A stretch of 52,047 nucleotides of DNA from a virus: IMG/VR virus record IMGVR_UViG_3300046780_000286, positions 1 through 52,047 of that record, one strand, 5' to 3'. Below are positions 810 through 52,047 of this stretch, one piece after another. Each line of letters begins with the position of its first letter. The stretch's first letter is position 1. The translations under genes were made by a program, and so were the position numbers. The notes under the pieces are model-generated. The model worked only from the letters and a program-made list of their open reading frames with translations. It ran no database searches and was not told the origin of the DNA.

Positions 810-1805
810 ATGTTTTCTGACATGCTAACAGAATTGCAGGACAGCATCAGCGATGCTTCGAGAGAAGTTCTCGCTAGATATCTGAATCGCGGTTACAAAG
901 AACTTTACGACACGTTCGATCTACCTTGTTCCGTAACGGACGAGTTCTTTGAGATTGATGGACAAGACGGACAGATTGTACTACCAGAATACGTCGATCA
1001 GATTAGAGGTGCTGGTTCGCGAATGGACTATGTGCCTATTACCGTATCCGATTTCAGGTCTGGCTATAGAATGACACCGTCGTTCCAGCGTCCTTATGAG
1101 TGGCGAATTCGTGGAGAAGTACCATTGGTGACTCAACTGGATGCGACCGATAAACTTCGAGTGACGCTTTTCGGCGTCGAGGAATCTGCCGTTAACGTCA
1201 TGATCATCGGCGAAACCGCACAAGCTGCAACGCACACAGAAACCGTTACTCTCTTGGCTGGTGAAACTACTAAACTGACCGAGGCTCAATGGATTGCTGA
1301 TAATCCCTATGCGATGACTTCGATCACGAAGGATATCACGACGGATAATGACATTGCGCTGACTGTTGCTAGCACCGGCACTGAGGTTTCTAGACTCAGG
1401 AATCGCTTGCTAAAGGCTAGATATCAGCTGCTTCAACTAACCGATCAAAACCCGCAGATTCCCTCGGGTTTCTGGAACGGACCTCCAGGCGCGCAGATCG
1501 TCTACAAGAAAACCCTCATCCCGCTGGTCTTCGACACGGACGAAATCATCTACCCCAAAGCCGAATCGGCTGTGTGCTGGAAAGCGCGTGAGCTTTGGTA
1601 TAATCAGAAAACGGATCAAGCCTCGTTCGCTGCGACAGAACAAGCCAAAACCAAGTGCAATGATCTGATTAACAACATCATGATAAATCAGGAATCCGCT
1701 GGCGAAAAGAAAGTAAACTTCGCTCGGAATCCCTACGTCAATAGCTGGGCATATACTCGCGGTCGTGGACTTCGTTACGGAAATTATTATGGCTACAATA
1801 GGTAA
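810..1805 (+). CDS. Tail adaptor / gatekeeper-like protein
   Basis: A 331-aa protein with start ATG preceded by AAGGATTTATTT, a reasonable Shine-Dalgarno. The N-terminus is helical (a segment like the start of podoviral tail tubular A proteins, with LNRGYKELYD at about residues 28-37). The middle is beta-rich and the C-terminus is helical with an Arg/Tyr-rich tail ending RYGNYYGYNR. Its neighbour downstream is a nozzle-like protein, the same order as tail tubular A then B in podoviruses. The function is inferred from order, length and predicted architecture, since there is no diagnostic motif. Confidence 0.5.
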   Translation: MFSDMLTELQDSISDASREVLARYLNRGYKELYDTFDLPCSVTDEFFEIDGQDGQIVLPEYVDQIRGAGSRMDYVPITVSDFRSGYRMTPSFQRPYEWRIRGEVPLVTQLDATDKLRVTLFGVEESAVNVMIIGETAQAATHTETVTLLAGETTKLTEAQWIADNPYAMTSITKDITTDNDIALTVASTGTEVSRLRNRLLKARYQLLQLTDQNPQIPSGFWNGPPGAQIVYKKTLIPLVFDTDEIIYPKAESAVCWKARELWYNQKTDQASFAATEQAKTKCNDLINNIMINQESAGEKKVNFARNPYVNSWAYTRGRGLRYGNYYGYNR

Positions 1806-4227
1806 AATGGATTGGTACGGTGGAATCAATCAACTTCCTGACCGGAGCAAGATTGACTTTGCAACGGAGTACGGCCTTCTTATCAATGGTCGTGTTCGCA
1901 CGAACGAAGTCACACCCGTTGTCGGACCACTTGATATTACTTCTGGACTTCCGACAACGGCTGAGCGCCAAGGACTTTACGCATTTGGATCGTTGCTCTT
2001 AGCATTTGCGGGCGGTAAAGCCTATTACAAAGAAACTACCGCAACGGTTCCAAGCTGGACGCCGGTTACTGCTTTGCAATTATCTCTCACGGAGAAGATC
2101 GAAGCGGTTGCGATTCCGGCATCGAGCATAAACTACAAACGCTATTCGACCGATGCTAGTAATGTCAAAGCGCCAGTTCGTCTTCAAGATGCTCGAAACG
2201 CATCGCCGGCTGCGGTTCTAGTCACAGATGGAGTAAACCAATCTTGGCTCATATTCGCAGACGGTACCTCAAGGCCGACTAAGACCTATGCACAATGGAC
2301 CATTGACGATCCTGAGTATGTTCCTGTAATGCGGATGCCTTACATGTCCTCAGATGGGATATTGTATTGCGTTGGTAAAGATAACAATGGCGTCTATAAC
2401 CAGATTTTCCGTTCGGTTACAGGAAGTCCTTTGAATTTTGTCATTGTTGTCAATACAGCAGGAAACAAATCCGGTACCGAAGCCGAAGGTGGCGCTCCGG
2501 CACTTGCCGAGCGAGCTTCGTTTTCGCCGATTACGTTCCTAGGTGGGATCAATGCCGTCGATGGATCGTTCTTAGTTACAACTGCGACATCGTCGACAGT
2601 ATTTACACCAGACTACGATAGACTTATTTGTTCCGAGCCGACCTACATCAAACAATACCTGTTCGACATCGGTGCCGTTAACGAGAACTCGGTAGCTAAT
2701 GTTCTAGGTGATACGACCATCGTAAATTCTAGAGGTATAAGGTCTTTTAACGGCGTTCAGCAACTCAAGTTCGAGGGCTCTTTTGCGCCGTTCAATATCA
2801 ACGTCAACAGAATCTTCGGTGACATCGTTCAAACAACCACGGCAGTAACGACCTTCGACAACTATGCGGTATATGCGATCCAGACTATCTATGGTTACGG
2901 AATTCTTTGGTACGATATGCTTCTTGCGAAATGGGTATCGCTGGACCTTTATGATAACCAGTCTGCGATTGTTCAGTTTGCTTCGGTTACTGTCGGGGCT
3001 TTGAACGAGTTGTACTTTCTCACTGAGTCCGGGCACATTTTCCAATGCTTCGCGGGTGACGTGCAAAAATGCACCGTTTACCTCGCAGATATTATCCCAC
3101 CAAACAGCGCCACTAGGCAAAGCATGGAAGCCGTTGCGGTAACATTTAGCGGAGGAGACACTGACGGATTTTGCGCGATAGGTTCTTACACTGACGGACG
3201 GTACTCCGGTGCTCTTACACTTCCTCTCGCTGCGGAGAATGTTGCACCAACTGGTGGCGTAGAACCTACTACGGGTCAGCTAGTGCTGGATTCCAATTCA
3301 ACTATTCCTTTGGTGTTCTCTCTTAAGGAAATAAGCACTCAGGGAACTCGTTTAGGAACTAGCATCTCTTGGAACACGAGCGCTCGGCTACTCTCTACTG
3401 TTGTAGAAACGGATGAGGTTGGTCCGACGAACGTGAAAGCGATTCCAGATAACTACGTTAGGTGCTTGAAGATTATTCTGCTTGGGTATGATGGCGTTTG
3501 CAATCCTCAGCAACGCGCGGTCAATCTCAGAATCCAGAAAGAGAATCCAGACTATATCATTGGCCTTGGTTCACACACAGTCGACGGAACTTCTAGCTCA
3601 GTGGCTACGTACTTAAAAGCACATTGGAATAATCAACATGAGAAAGGCACGTTTTATGCTATTCCCGGACCATCCGAGCTAGACACTAGCGTTGGGGAAC
3701 CATTCTTTCAGTATGTTCTCCAAGCACCGTCACGATACAGCATACTATCTCTCGCAGCTGCTAACTTTTATCTCCTCAACTCCGGCATTGATTCGTCCGG
3801 CGGTCAAGTTGAGCCAGATAACTCTGACGGTTCCTCGCTTGCTACGTCCACGCAAGCATTGTGGCTCGAATCCCAAGTCAACGCTAATCGCGCGAAATTC
3901 AATTTCGTCCTGCTCGGAACTCCACCACGAAGTTCCGTTGATGGATTGTCGTCTGCTGCTTGGAACGAGGTAGATTATGCAGGAATCGGCGTTGATGGCG
4001 TGTTCAGCGGACAGGGTTCTTACGAGCGAATCGAGGACTCTCGACGAGTCGTGTTTGTCAATTCCGGAACTGGCGGAGAACCCTTACAAACCTTTGGCGT
4101 CGTTCGAGAGGATTCCGCTGTCAGAATTGAGTCTTTCGGTTACACACGAATCACCATCACGCCACTATCGGCACTCATCGAATTCGTCTCGGTTGATGGC
4201 GAAGTGCTTGATAGACGATTGCTGTGA
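1789..4227 (+). CDS. Tail nozzle-like protein fused to an inactive metallophosphoesterase domain
   Basis: An 812-aa protein. I chose ATG 1789 (GGAAATTATT spacer) over the upstream GTG 1765; it overlaps the previous gene by 17 nt. Residues 1-500 open with DWYGGINQLPD and contain beta-propeller-like repeats, as in podoviral tail nozzle/stabilisation proteins. Residues about 555-765 follow the calcineurin-like phosphoesterase plan in order: ILLGYDG (562), IIGLGSHTVDG (591), AIPGPSELD (624), then WLES and VLLGTPPRSS (706), then VFSGQGSYERI (738) and a following NSGTGG. In active enzymes these read GDxG, GDxxYDG, GNHE, HxPP and SGHxHSYER. Here the metal-binding Asp, Asn and His positions are replaced, so the fold is kept but catalysis should be lost. 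I infer it is a structural or carbohydrate-contacting tail domain. Confidence 0.65.
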   Translation: MATIGKMDWYGGINQLPDRSKIDFATEYGLLINGRVRTNEVTPVVGPLDITSGLPTTAERQGLYAFGSLLLAFAGGKAYYKETTATVPSWTPVTALQLSLTEKIEAVAIPASSINYKRYSTDASNVKAPVRLQDARNASPAAVLVTDGVNQSWLIFADGTSRPTKTYAQWTIDDPEYVPVMRMPYMSSDGILYCVGKDNNGVYNQIFRSVTGSPLNFVIVVNTAGNKSGTEAEGGAPALAERASFSPITFLGGINAVDGSFLVTTATSSTVFTPDYDRLICSEPTYIKQYLFDIGAVNENSVANVLGDTTIVNSRGIRSFNGVQQLKFEGSFAPFNINVNRIFGDIVQTTTAVTTFDNYAVYAIQTIYGYGILWYDMLLAKWVSLDLYDNQSAIVQFASVTVGALNELYFLTESGHIFQCFAGDVQKCTVYLADIIPPNSATRQSMEAVAVTFSGGDTDGFCAIGSYTDGRYSGALTLPLAAENVAPTGGVEPTTGQLVLDSNSTIPLVFSLKEISTQGTRLGTSISWNTSARLLSTVVETDEVGPTNVKAIPDNYVRCLKIILLGYDGVCNPQQRAVNLRIQKENPDYIIGLGSHTVDGTSSSVATYLKAHWNNQHEKGTFYAIPGPSELDTSVGEPFFQYVLQAPSRYSILSLAAANFYLLNSGIDSSGGQVEPDNSDGSSLATSTQALWLESQVNANRAKFNFVLLGTPPRSSVDGLSSAAWNEVDYAGIGVDGVFSGQGSYERIEDSRRVVFVNSGTGGEPLQTFGVVREDSAVRIESFGYTRITITPLSALIEFVSVDGEVLDRRLL

Positions 4228-4555
4228 CAATGAATGGATTCGCGAGATTCTAGACTTTAGGACACCCCGTGTTCGCAAGCTGTTCGGTGCTAATTGGGAG
4301 AGGGAGCAAGTCGTAAAGTTGGTTGTCTTTACGATCATGTCGGGGGTAGTACTGGCTTCGGCGCGGGGTGTCCTTTTGGGTCGCTTCAGAGCTAAAAACG
4401 TGATAGTGGTAGACGTTATCTTCGGTGAGAGAAAATTTATTTCAGAAGTTCTAAAGGCTTGGCGGGATTTATACCCCGGATTTCAAGTGCAGGGAAATAG
4501 GCACGGTAAACTTCACAATTTCAAAAAACTATATGGGCGCACCAGATGTAAATAG
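4196..4555 (+). CDS. Hypothetical 119-aa protein bridging two tail genes
   Basis: This open frame starts inside the end of the nozzle gene and overlaps the next gene start by 23 nt, filling a 305-bp gap that would otherwise be empty. The protein begins MAKCLIDDCCDNEW, has a hydrophobic stretch at about residues 38-60 (VVKLVVFTIMSGVVLASA), and ends in a basic segment (GNRHGKLHNFKKL). There is no obvious Shine-Dalgarno. I do not recognise a family. The gene call rests on gap filling and overlap pattern only. Confidence 0.4.
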   Translation: MAKCLIDDCCDNEWIREILDFRTPRVRKLFGANWEREQVVKLVVFTIMSGVVLASARGVLLGRFRAKNVIVVDVIFGERKFISEVLKAWRDLYPGFQVQGNRHGKLHNFKKLYGRTRCK

Positions 4556-5381
4556 CAACGAGATTTCTGCACAAAGCATGCAGAATCTAGTACAGTATCT
4601 TCCGCAATATTTGCAAGCGGCAAATTCGCAAGTATTGCCAACCGAACAAGCCAAACTCGCAGCCGAGCAGGCTACCGCGCCAGGTCGAGCTCAGCTTGAG
4701 TTGGATCAGTACAAACAATTCGCACCGCAGTTCAGCGAACTCGGAACAGCGATTGGCAAGCAGCAGCAGCAAGGGCAAGCCGCGAATGATCTGGCTACGG
4801 TGCAAGGAACTGGCGGTCAACTAGCGACAGCTTTGACGGATGCGCAGAGGAAAGCTGATCCTGAGTTCTATGCGCTTCGAGCACTAGCCGCGCAGCAAGG
4901 CCAGCGGTTGAATGATTCGATTGTTGATCCCAATTCTGGTCTATCTCCAACAGAAAGAATCGAAATCGATAGGTCACTTGCTAGGGATAATAACCGACGA
5001 GGCACAGAAGCTCCAACCGCTACGTCCACGGTCAGTAATGCGATGGCGTTTGGAAATGCAGGTGAAGCTCGTAGGTCAGCTAGGCAGCAGCAACTTGCTG
5101 GGATTTTTGGTGCAACCTCGCAAGCCGCGCCGGCAACGAAATCTGGTATTGACGTGGGTTCGGCGATTCTTAATAGGCCAATTATTAACAACGGCGAAAA
5201 TCGCTTCACTAATCCGCAAACTGCTGGACAGGAATCTTATTCAGCTGCTGGTAATCTATTTAACTCCTTTCAAAATACTGGTCTATCCGCAGCGCAAGGA
5301 AACCAAAACAAGAAGACTGCTCTCGATCAGGCTATTGCTGGCGTTTCGGCTGCGGGAAGTTTGCTTGGTGGGAAAGTTTAG
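4533..5381 (+). CDS. Internal virion (ejection) protein candidate, Ala/Gln-rich
   Basis: A 282-aa protein that is low in aromatic residues and very rich in Ala, Gln and Asn, with helical segments such as EQAKLAAEQATAPGRAQLEL. There is no signal peptide or catalytic motif. It is the first of three consecutive genes (4533, 5402, 6219) after the tail nozzle, the position where podoviruses keep the internal core proteins ejected into the host. The role is inferred from position and composition. Confidence 0.5.
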   Translation: MGAPDVNSNEISAQSMQNLVQYLPQYLQAANSQVLPTEQAKLAAEQATAPGRAQLELDQYKQFAPQFSELGTAIGKQQQQGQAANDLATVQGTGGQLATALTDAQRKADPEFYALRALAAQQGQRLNDSIVDPNSGLSPTERIEIDRSLARDNNRRGTEAPTATSTVSNAMAFGNAGEARRSARQQQLAGIFGATSQAAPATKSGIDVGSAILNRPIINNGENRFTNPQTAGQESYSAAGNLFNSFQNTGLSAAQGNQNKKTALDQAIAGVSAAGSLLGGKV

Positions 5382-5401
5382 AGAATCTAATCCAATTTCT
5401 T

Positions 5402-6199
5402 ATGCCTACTTATAACGTAAAAGACAATCCGTACTACGACCAGTGGCGTGGTAACAATCTAATCTCCGATCTTCTAGCCAATGCGACTCAGAGCTTTTCC
5501 GCGCCACAAACTGGTCCTTATGGCGAACGAAAGGGATTCTTTAGGTCTTTGATTGGTGACCAAACCAATCGAATGAACTCTGCGGCCGCTATGCGACAGC
5601 AGGATGTCGATGCTGGTGCGGTGCCTTTTCAGAAGGAAGTCGCGCAAGAAGACGTTATCAACAAGGCTAATAATGAAGGCGCTGCGAGTAGGCAGGCTGC
5701 TGGCGAAGCTGCTAGGATGCAGGTCGCGAAGTTCGAGCAAGAACAAGAAAACAAACGAGCGGAGACTAGACAGAATTCTGCTGAACGCCAAGCGAATATC
5801 GCCGATCAGTGGCAGAATCAAACGCGTCATGACCAGATGGAGAATGATAGAATCCTTCGGCAGGCTGCTACTGAACAACAGCTTAGAAAGCAGGCTAACT
5901 TACAAGGCGAACGCGGTGCCATTATGCGTGAGCAGATGCAGAAGCCATATACTAGTAATGATTTCTTGGTTGACCCAAAAGCCGGAACGATGACAAGGAC
6001 TCGTGCGGCACGGTATGGACAAGCCGGTGACGAAGTATCTACCGGTCAGGAACAGATGCTTACTCCAGACAAACTCAAGTGGCTTGAGCAGGGCGATTCG
6101 GATGAAGCCACCGCTAGTCCTTTGCCTAGTTACCAACCGCCTGTAGATATCGATTCGCTACTAAAGGGTAGCCAATTCAATCCTTCTTTGCGCTATTAA
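5402..6199 (+). CDS. Internal virion protein candidate, coiled coil
   Basis: A 265-aa protein whose residues about 70-190 form a long charged helix rich in Glu, Gln, Arg and Ala (for example EQEQENKRAETRQNSAERQ), typical of a coiled-coil core protein. It starts MPTYNVKDNPYYDQW. Codons are those of its neighbours. It lies between the 282-aa protein and the 1,798-aa polyvalent protein, so a second ejection protein is the best reading. No enzymatic motif is seen. Confidence 0.5.
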   Translation: MPTYNVKDNPYYDQWRGNNLISDLLANATQSFSAPQTGPYGERKGFFRSLIGDQTNRMNSAAAMRQQDVDAGAVPFQKEVAQEDVINKANNEGAASRQAAGEAARMQVAKFEQEQENKRAETRQNSAERQANIADQWQNQTRHDQMENDRILRQAATEQQLRKQANLQGERGAIMREQMQKPYTSNDFLVDPKAGTMTRTRAARYGQAGDEVSTGQEQMLTPDKLKWLEQGDSDEATASPLPSYQPPVDIDSLLKGSQFNPSLRY

Positions 6200-6218
6200 C
6201 ATCTAGACTTATTTCGCT

Positions 6219-9200
6219 ATGGCTAAAACGACACGTGAACAGCGAGAAGCTCAGCTTCTGCAACAGATTGGAAAAGACCCAGCGAGTTTCGCAATCGACT
6301 CATCTGGTAAGGTAATTCCTCGTACGACGCCAGAAGCTCCCGCGCCAGAATCACCGACGGGTCCTTGGGAAACCTTTGGACGATCGGCTGTCGGTGCCAT
6401 TCCAGAAACTGTTGGATCGCTTGTTGGCGGTGGGCTTGGTGCTGCGGGCGGAACTCTGGTAGCTCCCGCATTTGGACCGGCTGCTCCTCTTGTGCCGTTT
6501 GCGGGTGGCTTGGCTGGCTCAATCGGCGGAGGTATGGCTGCGCATGAATTAGAAAAAGAACTTCCTAAAGGCTATCAAGACTTCGTTAGCAAAGGTGCTA
6601 GAGAGAATCCTATCTCAGCCGAACTCGGTGATGTTTTGCCACAGTTGTTGACGTCTAACCCGGTTAAATCCGCGCGAGTTATTGGTGCTCTCGCTAGGGG
6701 TATTCCTACGCTTACTAGATTCACAGGTCAGCAGCTCGGTCATCTTGCCGGCATTGGCATCGGTACTGGAACTGGCGCGGTTGGACCAATCGCTGAGGAT
6801 TGGGATCGTCCAGAAGGTCTAGGACTAGACACGGCTAAACGCTCGGCGATTAGGGGCGTGGCTGGTTTGTTGGGCAGCCAACAGAATCGTTTGGGTAATC
6901 TATTCTCTTCAGGAAAGTTTGCACCTAGTCCCGACGTCGGCGATAGATGGGCAGATGCTGGTCGTGTTGCGCGGGATTCGATGCAGCAAAGCGGACGCGC
7001 ACCTGTGTTCGAGGGCGAGCCAGTTACGAGCCGACCTGAGCCGATTGATGCGGATGTGGTTGAGGCGACGCAGGTTGATAATCCTGCGCAACAGAACAGA
7101 GGACTTCTCGGTAATTCCCCACAGGACAGGGGTGTTGAGTCAGTTACTTCTCAGACCGAAACCGATGCCGCAATGGCTAAAGCGGCTGCGGATTTGGAAG
7201 CGTCGCGAGCGAAGATTCAGCCTGAACAGCCTGCGAAAAGTCAGTGGAATGACACGCCAGAAAATCGCGCTAAGCTGCTAGCAAAAATCCAAGCAGATAA
7301 TGCTGCACGTAATCGTCCTCCACCTTTCGATCCCGTTCATGCACGTGAGGAAGTCAATCCTAGCGTTCAAGGTCCAGTCGAACCTCAGGCTGATGAGCCT
7401 AACTTCTCATTGCCCTATCGGCAAGGCCAAGGCGCAGCTAGACCTCAACTCCCAGAACCTCCGTATCAACGGCCGCAAGGAGAAATTCCTGAAAGTCAAT
7501 TCGCAAAGGAGAAACGTCTAGCTCAGCGCGCTGGCGTTCCTCTCGAAAGGCAACAGGGTCAAGAAGGTGGACAGCTAGGATTGACTTCCCCAGAATGGGA
7601 CGAGATCATTAGGAACGTTGGCGGAAGCGACTACGGTTCTGATGTCGTTACTGGAGAACATAACCTAAGGGGTTCTGATGGAACGCCGCTCGCTGGTAAG
7701 GTTGAGCTTCCAACCGATCTAGAGAAAGGTTTGGTACGCATTGCTAAAAACGCTGGCGTTGATACTGGACCACATGAACTCTTACACGTAATCGTCAACG
7801 ATGTATTGGAAAGGGGTACCAAGGGCGAAAAAGCTTTCATCCAACGCGTTCTGGAACAAGCCGGCGGCGAGGAAGCACTCGTACAAGGCGGTGGCAATCT
7901 GTTCACTAAGAGACTTGTTAATGAAGGCGCAGGTTCTAAGGAATCAGAAGGACTTGGTGGAGACTTGATTGCGTTTATTAAGGCGCGGTTTTTGAGAAAT
8001 GCTACGCCAGCAGATTTGAAACGACTAGCAGCACGAACGCTTCGATCTGGTTCTGGCTCAGAGCAGTATCGTCCCGGCGGTGCTGGACTTAAATCCCAGA
8101 TCATGGAGGATGAGCAGAGCCTAAAAAAATCAAGTAATGTTAGGAATCAGCCGACAGTAAGTCAAGCATCACCTGAATACGGTAATTTTCCAGAATCATT
8201 TACAGATGTTGATATAGCTAATGTCAACAAGGATCGAGCTAGCTACGGTCTTGGTCCATTAACTCGTATACCAAAGGAAGCACAGGAGTCATTTAGGGCA
8301 GCTGAACGTGCTGTAGATGTTGGTAGAAATCGTGAATTTACTCCGGCTATCATAGGTAAGGATGGTCACATCTATGCAGCTGCTGGTCACAGTGAAGCCT
8401 CGATAATGGCTGATAAGGCAGGAACTTCGGAAGTCAGACGCGGATTCGTTACTAGGGATGGTAGGTTCCTTACCTTGATGGAAGTAGCTAAGGAGCAAAG
8501 GGCCAAGAAAGTCCGCGAGAATCCTGTTCCAGAAACCCGTGAGACGATAGCTAAGCAACTAGAAGTTACACTCGATCCCGATTCGGGAAAGGCTGTCACG
8601 CACATACCGCTGGGTTCTGAGATTCCAGCGAAGATCCCCTCGGGTTTGGAAATGGTCCGCACACCTAAAGGCACGGCGATCTTCAACCCCACAAAGGTTT
8701 CTCGTGCTGAGGTTCTCACTGCTGGTCAAGGTGAGAACTTTGACGGGCGTTTGCTTGGGATGAGTCAAGCTGAGAAACCACTTGTTTCGGACAAGGTTGT
8801 TACCACGTCTAAGGATGGTGTGAGGGATGTAGTCACTGAGGTTGTTTCACCTGGTAGCGAGCGCGCCGCAATGGCTGCTCACGAGAAGGCTGTTCCGGGT
8901 GGCGTTTCGGAGGTTAAGCCAATCGCGGATGTACTTAATGAAAGGACTCAACCGCTAGGTCCGAGAGAGACTTATGATCCTTCAGATATTAAGAAGCCGA
9001 TTCCTTATGGTTTTTGGATAGAGCCAAATGGTAAGTTTAGGCCAGTCGAATCGCGAGGTCATTTTGCTGAAGCCAGTAAAATCGCAGATGAAATAGGATT
9101 GAAACCTGGAATGAATGGTTTACAATATGATCAACTTAAAGAAAAAGGTTACGCACGTGCTCATTATGATAGAGACAAAAACCGCCTAACTGTAGAGAGT

Positions 9201-11615
9201 TTCGCTAATTCTCCGAATAAGGAATCGTTAATTAGACTTATTAAGAAATTTGGTAAGGATCGCAATGTAACAGTGGCACATGAACTTGGCGGCGGTCCAA
9301 ATTGGCCAACCTCCAAGATAGTCCATGAAGCTACCGGAGAACGATACCAACCTTTAGGTCCTCGTGAGACTTATGGTCCAGAGGAAAAGCCTAAGTTCTC
9401 AGTCTTCTCCGGCCCAGTTCAACGCCTAGCAGAATCTTCCGATCCTGCGCGTCAGAAAGCCGCGGACGTCTTTAATCGTCTATTCTCAAACCGCGACGCT
9501 TTGCGCGGTAAATACTCAGGAGTTATCACCGAGATTAACAAAGACCCAGTCCTAGCGCGTAAGGCTCAAGAGGCAATGATCGAACGTGAGCGCACAGGTC
9601 GTGTTCCGGTTATGCCTCTGCCTGTGAAACGTGTTTACGATGTGATGTCAGACACGTATAAGCAAATGCGTCTGGATCAGATTGCTGCTGGTCAAAAGAT
9701 TAACGGACGACAGGCTGGCGTTGATCCTTTAGGAATGTTTACTGTTGCTAGTCCGGACGTATTCAAAACGCTGAACACAGCTGATAAGAATTCACCTAGA
9801 TACAAGAGCCTTAAGGCGGATTACATTAACGAGCAAATCTCTAGGGGATTCTCTACTGCTGGTGCTGAAAACGCGTTCAACAAATACGTCGAAGGAATGT
9901 CCACTTCTAGCGATCCGTCGTCGAGTGTGGATTTTAAGGCGGTCTCGGGTGCAGAAGGAACTAAACTTCCCGCGTCTTGGATCGAGCCTGACCCAGCTAC
10001 GGCTTGGGAACGGTACATTGATAGGTTCACTTCTGCTAGAACATGGCATGATGTCGTCGAGAAAGACCCATCTGTTCGAGCTTTGTTCGAGGGAACAGAC
10101 TCCATCGCTAGAGACCCTTCCGTGACGGAAGCTTTCAACTCATACCGAGGCGTAACTAAGAACGGTTTGAAGGGAGCGGTTGGCGGCGTCGATAGGGCTA
10201 TCAAGTCAGTGATTCTTGGGCCAGTAACGAGAGTTATTGACATGGCTACGACACCTATATCCGCGTTGAAATATACGCCATTTTCACATTGGCCAGAACT
10301 CGCGTCAGAGCTTACCAAGTTCCGCAAGTATTCAGATGCTTCTATCACCTCTGGGTTAAATAAGCCTAACCGAGATAGCTACTACCGAGAGAATGTTGGC
10401 GCTGGTGAATATGCGAATCACGTTCTCGACAAAGCTGCTAAGAAAATCTCTGAATATCAGGGCGCGAATAAAGTTGAGTTCGGTGCGAGAGTTATTGCGC
10501 AAGCTGCCGGTCAAAGTCTTGGTGGCCTGTACAAAGCGCGAGCCTTAGCGGGTGATGCTGAGGCGGCGAAGATGCTAGACAAGCTTGGCTCGGATTGGCG
10601 AACGATTTCTCCAGAGGAGTTAGGTGCAAGATTCGGTCGAATCTGGCAAGGCACTTATGATGCAAGGAATCTCCCGGCTTGGATTATTGATTCTCCTATC
10701 TCGCCGTTTTTCTCGATGGCTAAGTGGAGCACAGAGCAGTGGAATAACATGATTCGTTTCGGGGTTGAGCCCGCACTTAGAGGAAAGCCAGGTCCTTTGA
10801 TTCAGCAGTTGCTTATCTCTCTCGCGCTAGGTGGACCCGCGTTGGCAATGCTTCGAGAGAAGATGACGGGCAAGAAACCTTACATCGCTACGATCGAGGA
10901 GATTAAAAATGCGCCTGATAAAGTTGCCGCAATTAAAGCCGCTTCGGCGAAGATTGCAAACTTCATGCAGGCTACGTCGCAGCTTGGGATCGTTGGCGAT
11001 CTTGTGAACGAGCTTGCGCTTAAACCGATGTCTGGTCAGATTTCCTCCGGCGGTCCGACTTGGCCCGGTGCAGAAATCACCAAGGACATTACGCTTAGAT
11101 CGGCAAAGGCTCTCGAAGCAGTCTTGTCGGGTGCTGATCTAGGAGACGTGTTGAAACAATACACCAAGGATGTCGTCGGACGTAATGCACAAGTATGGCA
11201 GATTGTGAATTCGCATTCGGAAGATACTAGGTTGAAGAATCTCGCGCGAGACTATAGGGTTTATCGACGACTTCAAGGAAAGAAAGATATCACGCCAGTT
11301 TCGTCCGTGGACTATACGCGTTCTAGTGAACGCGCTTTGGATAGCATGAATTCTAAAGAGGGCTTGGCTAAACGCAAAGAACTCAATGTAGCAGTTGCTA
11401 AGAAATTCTCGCCCGGTTCGGAAGCCTATGACAAGGAGATGAACAAATTAGACACGTCTAGGCAAAACTTCTTCCCGACTGATCCTATGGAGCAACGTGC
11501 GTACATGACGTGGTTGACTAAGACCCAAAGCAAAGAAAAAGCCCTCGAAGCGCAGAACGCTTGGAAGGCTTGGGTGAAACAGGAAGCTGGGAAGAGAACC
11601 TATAGGACTAAGTAA
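6219..11615 (+). CDS. Giant polyvalent internal virion protein with HELLH motif
   Basis: A 1,798-aa modular protein and the last gene of the late arm. Residues about 50-115 are glycine/alanine-rich and hydrophobic (VGSLVGGGLGAAGG and following), suited to membrane insertion. A Pro/Gln-rich linker region follows (250-470). Residues 519-523 read HELLH, the HExxH zinc-metallopeptidase signature, preceded by GVDTGP. Residues about 640-760 and 920-1040 look like inserted modules, the second flanked by two copies of a QPLGPRETY linker. The C-terminal 700 residues are helical and resemble the terminal parts of phage large polyvalent proteins. Known relatives are ejected into the host and carry mixed enzymatic modules. 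Peptidase activity is only suggested by the motif. Confidence 0.65.
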   Translation: MAKTTREQREAQLLQQIGKDPASFAIDSSGKVIPRTTPEAPAPESPTGPWETFGRSAVGAIPETVGSLVGGGLGAAGGTLVAPAFGPAAPLVPFAGGLAGSIGGGMAAHELEKELPKGYQDFVSKGARENPISAELGDVLPQLLTSNPVKSARVIGALARGIPTLTRFTGQQLGHLAGIGIGTGTGAVGPIAEDWDRPEGLGLDTAKRSAIRGVAGLLGSQQNRLGNLFSSGKFAPSPDVGDRWADAGRVARDSMQQSGRAPVFEGEPVTSRPEPIDADVVEATQVDNPAQQNRGLLGNSPQDRGVESVTSQTETDAAMAKAAADLEASRAKIQPEQPAKSQWNDTPENRAKLLAKIQADNAARNRPPPFDPVHAREEVNPSVQGPVEPQADEPNFSLPYRQGQGAARPQLPEPPYQRPQGEIPESQFAKEKRLAQRAGVPLERQQGQEGGQLGLTSPEWDEIIRNVGGSDYGSDVVTGEHNLRGSDGTPLAGKVELPTDLEKGLVRIAKNAGVDTGPHELLHVIVNDVLERGTKGEKAFIQRVLEQAGGEEALVQGGGNLFTKRLVNEGAGSKESEGLGGDLIAFIKARFLRNATPADLKRLAARTLRSGSGSEQYRPGGAGLKSQIMEDEQSLKKSSNVRNQPTVSQASPEYGNFPESFTDVDIANVNKDRASYGLGPLTRIPKEAQESFRAAERAVDVGRNREFTPAIIGKDGHIYAAAGHSEASIMADKAGTSEVRRGFVTRDGRFLTLMEVAKEQRAKKVRENPVPETRETIAKQLEVTLDPDSGKAVTHIPLGSEIPAKIPSGLEMVRTPKGTAIFNPTKVSRAEVLTAGQGENFDGRLLGMSQAEKPLVSDKVVTTSKDGVRDVVTEVVSPGSERAAMAAHEKAVPGGVSEVKPIADVLNERTQPLGPRETYDPSDIKKPIPYGFWIEPNGKFRPVESRGHFAEASKIADEIGLKPGMNGLQYDQLKEKGYARAHYDRDKNRLTVESFANSPNKESLIRLIKKFGKDRNVTVAHELGGGPNWPTSKIVHEATGERYQPLGPRETYGPEEKPKFSVFSGPVQRLAESSDPARQKAADVFNRLFSNRDALRGKYSGVITEINKDPVLARKAQEAMIERERTGRVPVMPLPVKRVYDVMSDTYKQMRLDQIAAGQKINGRQAGVDPLGMFTVASPDVFKTLNTADKNSPRYKSLKADYINEQISRGFSTAGAENAFNKYVEGMSTSSDPSSSVDFKAVSGAEGTKLPASWIEPDPATAWERYIDRFTSARTWHDVVEKDPSVRALFEGTDSIARDPSVTEAFNSYRGVTKNGLKGAVGGVDRAIKSVILGPVTRVIDMATTPISALKYTPFSHWPELASELTKFRKYSDASITSGLNKPNRDSYYRENVGAGEYANHVLDKAAKKISEYQGANKVEFGARVIAQAAGQSLGGLYKARALAGDAEAAKMLDKLGSDWRTISPEELGARFGRIWQGTYDARNLPAWIIDSPISPFFSMAKWSTEQWNNMIRFGVEPALRGKPGPLIQQLLISLALGGPALAMLREKMTGKKPYIATIEEIKNAPDKVAAIKAASAKIANFMQATSQLGIVGDLVNELALKPMSGQISSGGPTWPGAEITKDITLRSAKALEAVLSGADLGDVLKQYTKDVVGRNAQVWQIVNSHSEDTRLKNLARDYRVYRRLQGKKDITPVSSVDYTRSSERALDSMNSKEGLAKRKELNVAVAKKFSPGSEAYDKEMNKLDTSRQNFFPTDPMEQRAYMTWLTKTQSKEKALEAQNAWKAWVKQEAGKRTYRTK

Positions 11616-13921: not shown

Positions 13922-14097
13922 GATACGTTGTATCCACGTTCGATTAAGAATCGTTTTTGCTCTTGGAATTCTTCCTCACTCAAACGAGGTTTTGTCTGAT
14001 CGAAAATTAGGCAAGAACCAATCGCACCAGTGACTGGATAATACAGAAGCTCTGCATATTCAGGATTCGGAATCCATTCTTTCTTCTCATCACTCAT
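13918..14097 (-). CDS. Hypothetical 59-aa protein
   Basis: A short gene joined by ATGA overlaps both to the polymerase palm gene upstream (14094) and to the 65-aa gene downstream. The protein starts MSDEKKEWIPNPEYAEL and ends in a charged helix (EEEFQEQKRFLIERG). The tight coupling on both sides supports a real gene. Function is unknown. Confidence 0.6.
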   Translation of the reverse strand: MSDEKKEWIPNPEYAELLYYPVTGAIGSCLIFDQTKPRLSEEEFQEQKRFLIERGYNVS

Positions 14098-15092
14098 AGT
14101 TGTATTTCTTTCATCCCAATCGGGTTATGTTCTTCATCATAGTGGCCCCAGTTCTTACCCACAGCCACCGATGATTTCATCCTAAAGCTTTTACCGTCTC
14201 GTCCAACTAAGACGAAAGACTTGATTGCATCCGAAGCAACCTTAGCAGCCTCGTTAATCTCCACGTCGGGAACCTCTAGCAAGATTGAATCATGTTTTTG
14301 GTTCAAGAGATTCCAGCGCTTGTTCTCACGTTGGATGTAATCTTCCACGATGAAGATTGCCTCTGTCGAAAGACAACCCACAGTTGACTGAGGTATCCAA
14401 GAGATAATCTCGCGTTCGTATGAAGGCGTAAAGATTCTTTCAAAGCGCCTAGGATAGCCGAACATATTCACAAGTTCGCGATACTTCTTTGCCATGAATA
14501 TGACCTCCGTTTGCCACTGTTTAATCTCAGGAAAGAGCTTATGGAACATCTCAAGGAACACCTTAGCCTCGGCTGCAGTCATAATCAAAGCACCCTTGGA
14601 TTGCTTCAAGGCGTTGTCCATAAAAGTTTTCCAACCACCGCCATAAGAAGACATATGGACTACCATCTTGCCGACTTTGTAGGGCTTGCCGGAGTTCGCT
14701 ATCCTAGACTTGAGCGTTTTCCAATGAGGTAGTTTAACGAGTTCGCTTGGGGTTAGCTCCGCGAGATAGACTTCTTTAGGAAGAATGCCCGCGAACCATT
14801 GCGGATTCGTTGCTGCGAAAAGATGCAGCGCGATTAAGGTATGTGGTTTCTCACCTACGTTCAACAGGTCTAGATAACGACCGGCCGGGGCTAGATTCGC
14901 GACGACTGCTGACTCGGCGCCGGATTGGTCTGGCTGGACGAAGAAACATCCTTGACGAGCTTGAAGCAGGCAGAGAATTTCTTCGTCAGGATTCTGGAGA
15001 TTTAGTCCTTGGTCGAATAGCTGGCTAGACGACAAGCGGTACGATTTTGTGCCCGCTACTTTGAACGTGCAGATCGCGCGAGGGAGGCTCAT
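14094..15092 (-). CDS. Family A DNA polymerase, palm and fingers half
   Basis: A 332-aa protein holding the polymerase core. The RLSSSQLFDQGLNLQNP stretch (19-35) matches the RLSSxxPNLQN start of the Pol I palm. Motif A is QPDQSGAES with Asp55, Ser57 and Glu60. Motif B has Lys142 and seven residues later Tyr150-Gly151. Motif C is KHDSI with His267-Asp268, Ser replacing the usual Glu. The usual Arg after motif A is absent. The exonuclease and thumb are encoded separately at 15294..16679, with a zinc-ribbon gene between. All three core motifs are present, so the half should be active when assembled with its partner. Confidence 0.88.
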   Translation of the reverse strand: MSLPRAICTFKVAGTKSYRLSSSQLFDQGLNLQNPDEEILCLLQARQGCFFVQPDQSGAESAVVANLAPAGRYLDLLNVGEKPHTLIALHLFAATNPQWFAGILPKEVYLAELTPSELVKLPHWKTLKSRIANSGKPYKVGKMVVHMSSYGGGWKTFMDNALKQSKGALIMTAAEAKVFLEMFHKLFPEIKQWQTEVIFMAKKYRELVNMFGYPRRFERIFTPSYEREIISWIPQSTVGCLSTEAIFIVEDYIQRENKRWNLLNQKHDSILLEVPDVEINEAAKVASDAIKSFVLVGRDGKSFRMKSSVAVGKNWGHYDEEHNPIGMKEIQL

Positions 15093-15099
15093 GGGTTAC

Positions 15100-15288
15100 T
15101 TATGAAACTTTTTCCCAACCACAATTTCCACAATGGTTTATTACTCGATCGCTCATGGAAATTCTTGCTATTCTATCTCCACACTCCGGGCACCGTTCGC
15201 TCGGTTTAACATAGCCAACTTGCCAAGGATACTTAGCAGGCTGTTCTTCTGGTTGGTCACCAGCACAATGTATGTCTCGGTCGGTCAT
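15100..15288 (-). CDS. Zinc-ribbon protein between the polymerase halves
   Basis: A 62-aa protein with two CxxC knuckles (CPECGD and CGNCGW) about 20 residues apart, a classic zinc ribbon. It has 5-7 nt gaps to the polymerase exonuclease gene upstream and the palm gene downstream. Its place suggests it was inserted into, or helps connect, the split polymerase. The partner is unknown. Confidence 0.7.
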   Translation of the reverse strand: MTDRDIHCAGDQPEEQPAKYPWQVGYVKPSERCPECGDRIARISMSDRVINHCGNCGWEKVS

Positions 15289-15293
15289 AGCTG

Positions 15294-16679
15294 TTACCTT
15301 TCTTCAATTCTGTAATACGGCTTAAACTTAAGCAAGTCACGACATTTAAGAACCTCTCTCAACGCAAGCAAAACCCTAATGCTAACGACACGAGGATTCT
15401 TAACAGCGAGAGAATACATAGCATCGGCAGCGGTTGAGTCTTTCTCGGCGGCGGTTTGATAAGTGGAAGTCAGGCCGAGTTGCTTGAAGAAATACTCACC
15501 TAGCTGTTGCGGCGAGGAGACTAGGACGGAACTCCCGGCTAGCATCTGGAACACACGAGTAAGTCCTCTAATCTTTGTCTCTAGCTGTCTTAGTTTAGCC
15601 GCGCGCAAGTCTTCGCGAAACTCGAACCCCGTAAAGCCAGCCCTTAGGTAAATCTCTAGTGACCTATTCGCGGAATCAACTGAAGCTTTTAGTCCCGGTC
15701 TAGCTTCTATATAGCTTCGTTGAGCTAGATACACAGCTCTAGTCGCGAGTACATCAAGTGCGTTATATCTGAGAAGCTGTTGATATTGGTGGTGATTCCT
15801 AGGATACCATGTTCCTGCAGCATCCTTGTGATAGGGAACATTGATCCAGAAAGAGATAACGTGACCAAGAGACTTTTCACTCTCCGGAAAAACGCGATGG
15901 TGCTGGATCATAGTATCTCTTAGATTTGGTCCCCAAGGAATCCCATGGAACATCGCGAGAAATCCTAGGTCAAAAGAGATGTTATGGCCGACAATCACGC
16001 AGCGTTTAAAAGCTCTAGTCAGAGCGGCAAAGAAACGCGGTGGTTGCTTAAGACTACCGTCGTAATTATAGACCGGAATCGAATAAACTGGTCCGGTTTC
16101 TCTAGAGATGGCTAGACATTGTACGACACTAGCCGAGGGCCAAGTTTCGATATCGATGAACAATAACTCACCCGCTTTGAAGCTATCTAGATACCCGGCT
16201 AGATCGGCGTTCCAGATGATATCTTCTTTGTAACCCGAGCGACGTTCATTAAGCAAGAGTTTTCTTATATCGCTCATTGCCCAAAATCGGTAGTTCGCAC
16301 GCGAGGTAATAGATAGGTCTTTGCTGTTGTCAGAGTCTGATCCAGAACCTTCGTCATCTTCATTATCCCACTCGCCATTGAAGGCTTCGGCGCAGTCGAT
16401 AGGGTTGAATGTGGCGACAATGTTGGAAGCCCGCGCGGTGTGGACGTAGCCTCTGAGAGTGGTGATATCTTGGGGTTTGCCACGCCACCTACTAGCTGCT
16501 GGAAAGCCGCAGAGAATCACTGGCCTACCAATACTAGCTGGGTGATAATCTAAATCATCAGTCACGTCGAAATCGCCGCCTATTGCCTCTGCGAGAAAGT
16601 CCGCTGATGGACCGCAGAGCAAGGTGTTCGAGGCTCGGGCGAATCTATCTCTAGACGAAAGAACTACAAGCGGTTTCAT
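15294..16679 (-). CDS. Family A DNA polymerase, 3'-5' exonuclease and thumb half
   Basis: A 461-aa protein. Exo I is FIDIET (Asp176, Glu178), Exo II is GHNISFDLGF (Asp237), and Exo III is YNALD (Tyr305, Asp309). All catalytic residues are present. The C-terminal part (SSPQQLGEYFFKQLGL to LREVLKCRDLLKFKPYY) is the thumb, ending where the palm would begin. The N-terminal ~140 residues form an extra domain with LRGYVH and VATFNPIDCAE, loosely like the uracil-glycosylase-type domain found at the N-terminus of some phage polymerases; this is tentative. An acidic linker (about 104-122) follows it. It overlaps the upstream small gene by ATGA. Confidence 0.87.
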   Translation of the reverse strand: MKPLVVLSSRDRFARASNTLLCGPSADFLAEAIGGDFDVTDDLDYHPASIGRPVILCGFPAASRWRGKPQDITTLRGYVHTARASNIVATFNPIDCAEAFNGEWDNEDDEGSGSDSDNSKDLSITSRANYRFWAMSDIRKLLLNERRSGYKEDIIWNADLAGYLDSFKAGELLFIDIETWPSASVVQCLAISRETGPVYSIPVYNYDGSLKQPPRFFAALTRAFKRCVIVGHNISFDLGFLAMFHGIPWGPNLRDTMIQHHRVFPESEKSLGHVISFWINVPYHKDAAGTWYPRNHHQYQQLLRYNALDVLATRAVYLAQRSYIEARPGLKASVDSANRSLEIYLRAGFTGFEFREDLRAAKLRQLETKIRGLTRVFQMLAGSSVLVSSPQQLGEYFFKQLGLTSTYQTAAEKDSTAADAMYSLAVKNPRVVSIRVLLALREVLKCRDLLKFKPYYRIEER

Positions 16680-21393: not shown

Positions 21394-22305
21394 TTATAAG
21401 TCTCGAAGACATTCTTCTAATGACATGCCTAGTATGTAAAATCGCACTAGATACGATTCAATTCCCCTAACATTTCCTTCCTCATAACAAGCTCTCGGAA
21501 TTATCTCGTCGCCGGCTTCGACGCGTTTATCTAGGTCTTTATCAAAGACATCCTTGATCCCTAGGTTATCAGCGATCCTGCTTGCGATTGGAATGACATC
21601 GAGAGGTCTATCGCGTAGAGGAGTTGTGCGTAGAACGATCTTGTTGATTCGATGGTACAAGTCACTCCTGAACTCACCCTTCGCGATCATGTCCTTAAGG
21701 TTCTTGTTCGTGGCGAAGACGAACTTGCACTCGACCGTATACTCGGAACTGCCACCTACGGCACGAGCCTGACGAGTTTGAAGAACCCTTAGCAACTTCG
21801 TTTGTTGATTAGGCGGTAGATCACCAACCTCGTCGAAGAAAAGCGTACCAGTTCCAGCCGTTCTGAAGAGACCCTCGGTGGAGTGGTCTGCGCCAGTGAA
21901 CGCGCCTTTCGTGTGACCGAAAAGTAGAGACTCGAATAGACTATCAACAATCCCTGAACAATTCACTGCATGAAAAGAATCCTTCGTGACGATTGTAGTC
22001 CGTCCGATGATTTTCTGCTCATTGTTATTGCCATGGAAGATTCTAGCTAGGAGTTCTTTGCCTGTGCCAGTTTCGCCAAGAATTAATACGGGAAAGTCGA
22101 ACTCGCTAGCATCACGAGCGATTTCTACTACGCGCAACATGGCTGGATCGTAGGTAACGAATTCCGCGATGGCAAGTTTTTGCGGGGTCGGTGCGATCGT
22201 GATGCCTTGACGACGCGCGGCTCCGGCTAGGATGCTATTGACATCGGCGACGGTCTTAGGTGCGACAGGTGTAGTTAAAGTGTCGGCGAATTTGGTTAGT
22301 TTCAT
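21394..22305 (-). CDS. Sigma-54 activator (bEBP) AAA+ protein, stand-alone domain
   Basis: A 303-aa protein with the full NtrC-type AAA+ core: Walker A GETGTGKE (77-84); the sigma-54-contacting loop GAFTGA (134-139); Walker B TLFFDEVGDLP (154-164); sensor I ATN (198-200); arginine fingers in FRSDLYHRI (212, 219); and sensor II GNVRGIE (278-284). Known proteins with this loop remodel the sigma-54 RNA polymerase closed complex with ATP. The N-terminal ~45 residues are too short for a receiver or GAF domain, and there is no C-terminal Fis/HTH domain, so it should be constitutive and act without its own DNA site. It overlaps the helicase gene by ATGA. Its target is host sigma-54, as no sigma factor is encoded. 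Confidence 0.9.
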   Translation of the reverse strand: MKLTKFADTLTTPVAPKTVADVNSILAGAARRQGITIAPTPQKLAIAEFVTYDPAMLRVVEIARDASEFDFPVLILGETGTGKELLARIFHGNNNEQKIIGRTTIVTKDSFHAVNCSGIVDSLFESLLFGHTKGAFTGADHSTEGLFRTAGTGTLFFDEVGDLPPNQQTKLLRVLQTRQARAVGGSSEYTVECKFVFATNKNLKDMIAKGEFRSDLYHRINKIVLRTTPLRDRPLDVIPIASRIADNLGIKDVFDKDLDKRVEAGDEIIPRACYEEGNVRGIESYLVRFYILGMSLEECLRDL

Positions 22306-42629: not shown

Positions 42630-43571
42630 ATGGCTTATTTTAATCTTCGTTGGAATCGGGCAGTTGCCACGTACCAAACCGTGGCCGCTGTTACGACACA
42701 GGTTCTAACGCCTTATGTCCAAAACGAATCTCCTTTAGTTGGCGAGGATGAAGGAGCGATTTTAGTCACACTAGCAGATGACACGTCTGGTGCGACGATT
42801 CGGTATACGATTGACAATACATCAGTAACAGAAGACTCGCCTGAGTATACCGCGCCGTTTGTTGTCTCCTCAGGAACAACCTTTCTCAGGGCAGCAGCGT
42901 TTAAAACTGGCATGGTTGATAGCGACGAAATGCTTGCTATCTACATCATCGGCGAAGTCGCTGATAAAGTCGCCACTCCAACATTCTCGCCCACGAATGG
43001 CAACTTCGCCTCAACAGTTACGGTCACGCTTACTTGCGCGACAGTTGGTGCGGACATGTACTACACGCTCGACGGCACCACACCAAGCATCTTGTCGTTC
43101 CCTTATACGGTTCCTTTCAATCTTGCGGCAACTACGCAAGTTAAAGCTATTGGGATTAAATCCGGTTTAACTGATTCAAACGTGGCTAGCAAAACTTACA
43201 CTAAGACCTCCGCCGCCGAGGCGGTTTATTGGGGACCGACGCCGCTTCGAGTTCTTACCGAAGCTGATGTTCTTGCTCTTGCGAATACCTCGCTTGAACT
43301 TGATTTCTTCCGCACATATCCATTTGGAGGAACAGTAGCAGATTACTTTGCTTGGTGGAGTCCTGATGTGTTTGCAGTTCCTCGTTTAACGGATGGCTTC
43401 TATCTCGCACCGTTCCCGGTTTCTATGGCAACGCCTTCTGAGGGATACGTTGATGGACCTACAAACGGCTGGTACTATTACAATCTGACTGTAAATGGTG
43501 TTCCGGGAAAAGTTTTTGCAACCTTCTTCCAACTCGGTTCGGGATCAACTCAGAACATCGTCGTTCAATGA
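42630..43571 (+). CDS. Virion surface protein with two chitobiase C-terminal-like (Fn3-like) domains
   Basis: A 313-aa protein. Residues about 35-110 and 115-190 each follow the CHB_HEX_C plan: a Pro-rich start (TPTFSPTNGNF), a TLTCAT-type strand, then MYYTLDGTTPS and TQVKAIGIKSGL. The C-terminal 110 residues begin YWGPTPLRVLTEADVLAL and form a domain seen in phage virion proteins. A surface-binding role is inferred. The gene overlaps the spike gene start by ATGA. Confidence 0.6.
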   Translation: MAYFNLRWNRAVATYQTVAAVTTQVLTPYVQNESPLVGEDEGAILVTLADDTSGATIRYTIDNTSVTEDSPEYTAPFVVSSGTTFLRAAAFKTGMVDSDEMLAIYIIGEVADKVATPTFSPTNGNFASTVTVTLTCATVGADMYYTLDGTTPSILSFPYTVPFNLAATTQVKAIGIKSGLTDSNVASKTYTKTSAAEAVYWGPTPLRVLTEADVLALANTSLELDFFRTYPFGGTVADYFAWWSPDVFAVPRLTDGFYLAPFPVSMATPSEGYVDGPTNGWYYYNLTVNGVPGKVFATFFQLGSGSTQNIVVQ

Positions 43572-51585: not shown

Positions 51586-52047
51586 ATGGGCTATCCAGTG
51601 CTAGAAGATTATGTATTTGAAGTAGGAGCAGATCCAACGTCTGTCTTTCCTACTGACGAAGCAACGCTGTTGCTTAGCTTTGGTCGCTTGATGACCACGA
51701 ATGAGTATCATGGAATCGTGATTCATTCCGAAGATACGCCAACCACGTCCGGACAGCCAGCAGGCTATCCGGCCGATTGGTACGCGTGGAATAAGCGCAA
51801 TCTCTGGCATAAGCCATCAACGAACGAGGTTTTTGGCTACCACACCGGCCTAGGTTGGGAGCCGCTTCCAGTTGGTGATGCCACGATTGGCACTGATCAA
51901 ATCATTGACGGCTCTATAACGCCAGAGAAACTCGCAGTAACGGGTTCGGCTGGGCAAATTTTCCAAATCAACCCAACCGCTACGGCTTGGACACTGGTTG
52001 ACGCAAGTCAGATATTCTTGCCGGGTACGATCACGCTGGATAAGATT
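51586..52047 (+). CDS. Tail fibre-like protein, N-terminal part (continues at position 1)
   Basis: ATG preceded by AAAAGGATTATT, a good Shine-Dalgarno. The first 154 codons fill the end of the window, 42 of them duplicated in the left terminal repeat. The N-terminus (MGYPVLEDYVFEVGAD) is the likely attachment domain; a Trp-rich segment (DWYAWNKRNLWHKPS) resembles short glycan- or collar-binding motifs in fibres. The complete protein is 377 aa. Confidence 0.65.
   Translation, partial: MGYPVLEDYVFEVGADPTSVFPTDEATLLLSFGRLMTTNEYHGIVIHSEDTPTTSGQPAGYPADWYAWNKRNLWHKPSTNEVFGYHTGLGWEPLPVGDATIGTDQIIDGSITPEKLAVTGSAGQIFQINPTATAWTLVDASQIFLPGTITLDKI
51921..52047. repeat. Terminal direct repeat, right copy
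   Basis: Identical to bases 1-127. Removing one copy gives the 51,920-bp circle. Confidence 0.95.

Follow-up and report, generated by a model that had tools for sequence, protein, structure and literature searches.

The Window Protein and Its Gene Neighborhood

The window, i.e., the whole stretch of DNA analyzed here, comprises the entire IMG/VR record of 52,047 bases. It ends in an exact 127-bp direct terminal repeat (positions 1-127 and 51921-52047). Since this repeat closes the record, the genome is probably complete, and because one gene (51586 to 799) spans the junction of the repeat, it is probably circular or permuted. Searches of phage, IMG/VR, PDB and family collections identified nearly no relatives for the phage as a whole, and the gene in terminase position, used as query, did not find any relatives either.

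The protein in the focus of this work starts at GTG 1765 (820 aa) or ATG 1789 (812 aa) and ends at 4227. Its C-terminal domain is termed PAP-like (purple-acid-phosphatase-like) in the following. The genes and parts of the locus are:

810..1805 (+), gene in adaptor (head-tail connector) position, 331 aa, assigned from gene order, no family match
1789..4227 (+), window protein, 812 aa (820 aa from GTG 1765), with an N-terminal part in nozzle position and a C-terminal PAP-like domain, almost certainly a pseudoenzyme (open reading frame, C-terminal profile match)
1789..3396 (+), N-terminal 536 aa, called nozzle-like solely for its position between the adaptor-position gene and the ejection-type genes
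3457..4224 (+), PAP-like metallophosphoesterase-fold domain, dead by sequence (profile match, model, PDB matches)
4533..11615 (+), three genes (282, 265, and 1798 aa) placed where ejection or internal virion proteins would be expected, assigned from position only, no family match

The order and sizes of these genes fit the succession of adaptor, nozzle and ejection proteins, with neighbors that are themselves without family match. The term nozzle-like, used in the original prediction, can be based on gene order only. Pfam, PHROGs, and PDB gave no family match for the N-terminal 536 aa, and thus none to podovirus nozzle families (T7 gp12, SU10 gp17, P22 gp10; phrog_3287), no relatives were found for this part, and nozzle profiles built from six other phage loci (L045, L042, L046, L048, L034, and L029) failed to match it. 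The missing nozzle-family match is not counter-evidence, because the nozzle proteins of phages T7 and SU10 also lack detectable sequence similarity to each other (PMC9509320). The nozzle label of the N-terminal part is drawn from size and gene position only; that the window protein is a tail virion protein appears quite probable.

Elsewhere in the window, a family A DNA polymerase is distributed over two ORFs (14094-16679, minus strand), one with the exonuclease and the start of the polymerase domain and the second with the remaining polymerase domain, and a short CxxC-containing ORF (15103-15303) lies between them. A 303-aa protein (21394-22305, minus strand) consists mostly of a sigma-54 activator AAA+ domain (PF00158, E 2e-54), which is unusual for a phage. 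Within the structural gene region, a 313-aa protein (42630-43571, plus strand) strongly matches CHB_HEX_C_1 and Fn3_assoc (PF13290, E 9e-32); this type of domain is known in carbohydrate-active enzymes.

Homology of the C-Terminal Domain to PAP-Like Enzymes

The PAP-like domain accounts for the C-terminal ~256 residues (~557-812) of the 812-aa protein. It had been placed at 3450-4100 in the original prediction; a domain is indeed present there, but its real extent is larger, about 3457-4224. A profile of 13 PAP-like enzymes matched the window ORF with 53.9 bits (E 7e-16). The score was again 53.9 bits (E 6.3e-16, 797 targets) for a profile of 10 enzymes, from which three loci obtained via the window or its first hits were omitted. 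The 796 controls, made up of the remaining six-frame ORFs of the window, 500 shuffles, and the reversed domain, gave E 5.4 at best. One bacterial subgroup profile scored the window copy with up to 74 bits. In addition, Pfam reported one match:

4051..4215 (+), PF14008 Metallophos_C (PAP C-terminal), residues 755-809, 25.5 bits (cut-off 23)

Because of the difference between a profile E-value of 6e-16 and a best control of 5.4, we regard the homology of the domain to PAP-like metallophosphoesterases as settled. The alternative of a chance similarity or an assembly artefact could point to the near lack of database relatives for the whole phage, but it is extremely unlikely in view of this difference, the independent Pfam hit, an insertion shared with other phage copies (see below), and the exact terminal repeat that closes the record; as an explanation of the profile match, chance is already refuted at the level of homology.

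The catalytic Pfam family PF00149 (Metallophos) did not match the window protein at E ≤ 10, even though it matches 51 of the 53 rows of our alignment A4. This is expected, because the catalytic motifs are gone. Direct searches of phages, IMG/VR, and PDB with the window protein found nothing, and the route to the relatives led through two weak tblastn hits in plasmids (E 0.1-0.3), which represent 839-aa Ensifer and Sinorhizobium proteins with an intact PF00149 domain. NCBIfam matches to ManD-type dehydratases were weak (E 0.03-0.16), far under cut-off, and were discarded. A "phage" record with an intact metallophosphoesterase (H13) had neighbors of bacterial type and was treated as probable bacterial DNA.

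Selective Loss of the Metal Ligands

Five blocks of a calcineurin-like phosphoesterase, in the expected order and spacing and with SYER after the last one, had been predicted, and remnants of all five could be located:

3484..3495 (+), GYDG, remnant of motif I (GDxG in the enzymes), with Y in place of the D found in 52/52 relatives
3568..3582 (+), GSHTV, remnant of motif II (GDNxY in the enzymes), with S in place of D and V in place of Y
3667..3678 (+), GPSE, remnant of motif III (GNH[DE] in the enzymes), with P in place of N and S in place of H
3916..3921 (+), GT, remnant of motif IV (HH in the enzymes); GT(PP) reaches 3927
4009..4029 (+), GQGSYER, remnant of motif V (GHxHxYER in the enzymes), which lacks both histidines, is shorter by one residue and retains YER

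The metallophosphoesterase ligand motifs GDxx, GDxx, GNH, H, and GHxH are absent from the domain. Among 52 aligned relatives, six of the ligand columns (D, D, H, H, H, H) are invariant (52/52), the asparagine is present in 51/52 and the motif II tyrosine in 48/52. At the eight columns, the window copy reads Y, S, S, G, Q, gap, P, and V and thus keeps none of them (0/8), as the original prediction of replaced metal ligands had it. By comparison, 48 other columns are conserved in ≥85% of the 52 relatives, and the window copy keeps 30 of these (30/49 in another count) and differs in 18, a significant difference in retention (Fisher p 0.001). The third-position GC content of the domain is about that of the rest of the gene (GC3 0.467 vs. 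0.463), and the frame is open to the C-terminus. Judged from this one sequence, the active site is selectively lost while the scaffold is retained, and the domain is almost certainly a PAP-like pseudoenzyme. Hydrolysis of the ancestral kind is not expected, because every conserved metal ligand is gone according to both sequence and model.

One may ask whether the chemistry was changed rather than lost, i.e., whether a new or reduced metal center, or metal-free catalysis, arose from residues near the old site. Candidates are the aspartate one place later in motif I (GYDG), the histidine after the serine in motif II (GSH), and the glutamate of motif III. We consider this very unlikely, since none of the eight ligand columns is kept, both histidines of motif IV and both of motif V are gone, and the replacements differ from those in a second dead copy (see below).

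Structure Model

With the 52 relatives aligned, AlphaFold2 modeled the domain with a pLDDT of 84.1 and a pTM of 0.85, compared with a pLDDT of 32.5 without alignment. The model has the alpha-beta-beta-alpha metallophosphoesterase fold that a structure prediction was expected to reveal, with a confident core. Purple acid phosphatases were the best Foldseek matches in the PDB (E 4e-15 for the pig enzyme), and VIA-align superimposed the model on pig PAP with a Z-score of 28.7 and an rmsd of 2.3 Å over 246 residues. The model supports the profile evidence and is not independent of it, because an alignment of enzymes favors the same fold.

PAP-Like Domains on Neck Proteins of Other Phages

IMG/VR scans detected PAP-like domains on at least ~35 contigs. 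As catalytic-motif patterns miss dead copies, the number of the latter is a lower bound; a further scan with alignment A6 recovered only a known locus. The domains occur in three main arrangements.

In type A, the PAP-like domain is C-terminal to a ~270-aa module, which follows genes in major capsid position and is assigned to the adaptor position from gene order (L015, L017, L025, L028, L031, and others, in the range L015-L033 and beyond). In type B, it lies within a protein that has a nozzle-like start and goes on with Ig-like and von Willebrand A domains (L029, L034, L036). Upstream of this protein, an SU10-type adaptor is encoded, and downstream of it, a phrog_3287 virion structural protein; in L036, the upstream gene matches PF24175 (SU10_adaptor) and the phrog_3287 match is in a nearby downstream gene. 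In type C, the domain comes after ~57 residues resembling a nozzle N-terminus (L045 and relatives), and the gene directly next matches phrog_3287 from profile position 103. The likeness to a nozzle N-terminus in types B and C was judged by eye. The catalytic motifs of type A-C copies are intact or nearly so, apart from the pair of records described in the next section. Hence, the ligands, whose fate in other phages the original prediction had singled out for checking, are kept in the relatives with the exception of one further dead copy. These comparisons show the window domain to belong to a wider set of PAP-like domains on phage neck proteins, in what appear to be adaptor or nozzle positions.

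The nozzle gene of L045 (5800-9176), L042, and L048 is apparently split over two overlapping ORFs, the first with the nozzle-like N-terminus and the metallophosphoesterase, the second with the rest (phrog_3287 from position 103). Von Willebrand A domains with an apparent MIDAS motif (DxSxS) were seen in the same protein as the PAP-like domain or in the gene beside it, namely in L036 (5533-7857, Pfam-confirmed) and, by eye, in L025 (6921-9314) and L016 (6552-9119). Finally, a 1762-aa protein on a 203-kb viral contig (L041, 4159-9447), apparently a large tail or baseplate protein, has an intact PAP-like domain mid-protein.

A Second Dead Copy

A second PAP-like pseudoenzyme was found at the C-terminus of an adaptor-position protein (type A) in two records, L145 (43.6 kb, 2897-4603) and L146 (75.3 kb, 2951-4720). 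The records derive from two metagenome samples of possibly shared origin, and the protein is identical over the common length; because both carry the same sequence, a sequencing error is unlikely. Over 529 residues, the protein is 35% identical to that of L017. The five motifs are GNYG, GNN, GSVD, NR, and GDLGQYER, so that 0/8 ligands but 44/48 other conserved columns are kept (p 3e-7). A ligand-free form has thus been retained outside the window phage. Like the window copy, the L145/L146 copy keeps no ligand column, retains the fold-bearing residues and is encoded in a phage virion gene cluster; unlike it, it is fused in adaptor position, has other replacements, and is without the insertion discussed below. 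The two dead copies are 27% identical over 191 residues.

These data also bear on the possibility that the window domain is a decaying remnant, which drifts after its use as an enzyme was lost. Its very long branch and the 18 changed non-ligand residues would suit decay, but the open frame, the equal GC3, the selectivity of the ligand loss, and the confident core model argue against it, as do the 44 other conserved residues kept in L145/L146, in two records from different metagenomes. We consider decay highly unlikely, slightly more so than a changed chemistry. The window domain, a two-metal phosphoesterase in the past, is today almost certainly a pseudoenzyme rather than a product of decay.

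Probable Phage-Borne Ancestry and Probable Independence of the Losses

The window domain contains an insertion that links it to other phage copies:

3781..3816 (+), insertion SGIDSSGGQVEP, common to 16/27 phage copies and 0/84 bacterial copies

The corresponding pattern, SG....G...EP, occurs in phage copies of types A and C (16/27 phage copies overall), and in none of the 84 bacterial copies, a distribution which points to a phage-borne ancestry of the window copy. Its position in the tree, where it is a single sequence on a branch of 5.7 changes per column, lacks support. The two dead copies were sisters in 0/200 bootstrap trees, though the AU test does not reject a common clade (p 0.24). Two separate ligand losses are likelier, because host proteins, replacements, and insertion differ between the two. 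More generally, it is conceivable, though we put it forward tentatively, that phage neck or nozzle proteins repeatedly capture PAP-like phosphatases and repeatedly strip them of the active site, with the window and L145/L146 copies as independent cases, and that the resulting tail pseudophosphatases recognize the former substrate at the cell surface without cleaving it.

Possible Role of the Dead Domain

Receptor recognition by phages is usually attributed to fibers and spikes. Nozzle proteins form rings; appended to the C-terminus of such a protein, the domain would surround the tail tip in several copies and would most likely serve there as a binding or docking module without hydrolysis. The old substrate groove might hold a phosphorylated group of a surface glycan, teichoic acid, or LPS; the domain could also dock tail fibers. 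The surface binding suggested in the original prediction is plausible for such a putative module. The SU10 nozzle protein has extra domains beyond platform and propeller, including one in contact with the short tail fiber (PMC9509320).

The most serious alternative is a purely structural one, in which the dead domain braces or plugs the nozzle by its bulk, helps in assembly or seals the DNA channel, and has no host ligand. The PAP-fold protein GAP50 is a membrane anchor in Plasmodium (3tgh; PMC8949495), the SU10 nozzle domains form structural contacts (PMC9509320), and loss of the ligands with a preserved core suits scaffolding as well as binding. Against this, the full catalytic motifs in most phage relatives suggest that phages originally kept the domain because of its active site rather than its bulk, an argument that is silent on the present role of the dead copy. 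We judge pure scaffolding to be rather unlikely, and a binding or docking role to have a slight advantage over it. Together, the above observations are best explained by a PAP-derived pseudoenzyme on a nozzle-position protein that acts as a putative binding or docking module of the tail (probability roughly 0.6). In short-tailed phages, an enzyme seems to have become a component of the tail without enzymatic function.

A phosphatase fold on neck proteins that is mostly intact, and dead in at least two phages, provides natural pairs of active and inactive forms. Such pairs could be used to study the function of a tail-borne phosphoesterase and the conversion of an enzyme into a tail module.

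Comparison with Known Systems

Purple acid phosphatases, including TRAP (pig, 5uq6; red kidney bean, 1kbp; PF00149 and PF14008), share with the window domain the whole fold, the PF14008 part, and the order and spacing of the five blocks. The window domain is only 17% identical to pig PAP and differs in the replacement of all metal ligands and in its C-terminal fusion to a protein of a phage tail cluster. Bacterial PAP-like metallophosphoesterases (Hymenobacter, Chloroflexota, and others; L053-L132) resemble it in profile homology and in the order of the motif blocks; unlike the window copy, the sampled bacterial copies keep the ligands and are without the phage insertion.

GAP50 of Plasmodium (3tgh) exemplifies the PAP fold as anchor of a machine and aligns to the window model with a Z-score of 26.4 (PMC8949495). 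In contrast to the window protein, it is a eukaryotic membrane protein with reported phosphatase activity (PMC8949495), so that it is no clean precedent for a dead PAP and exemplifies a structural use of the fold only.

PAP-like genes have been reported in phages before, such as gp26 of Rowlf, with a function stated to be unknown (PMC12352085), and genes of cluster EK phages (PMC13014141). ORF22 of P1312 is a metallophosphatase with a carbohydrate-binding module and is located directly after a tail gene (PMC4569894). Compared by description only, these differ from the window protein in that they were not reported as adaptor or nozzle fusions, or as dead. Our search of open-licence papers turned up neither a PAP-like domain fused to an adaptor or nozzle protein nor a dead version. 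The "new use" of the fold suggested in the original prediction has to be qualified, as it is preceded by the GAP50 anchor and by the intact neck and tail domains of other phages.

The latter (L015-L052, and possibly also A0A6J5NEL2 in UniProt, 554 aa, from an uncultured Caudovirales phage) are similar to the window copy in their location on neck proteins in tail-gene clusters and, in 16 of 27 cases, in the insertion. They differ from it by the presence of the ligands, and by fusion in adaptor position or at the start of the nozzle gene, rather than at the C-terminus of a nozzle-position protein.
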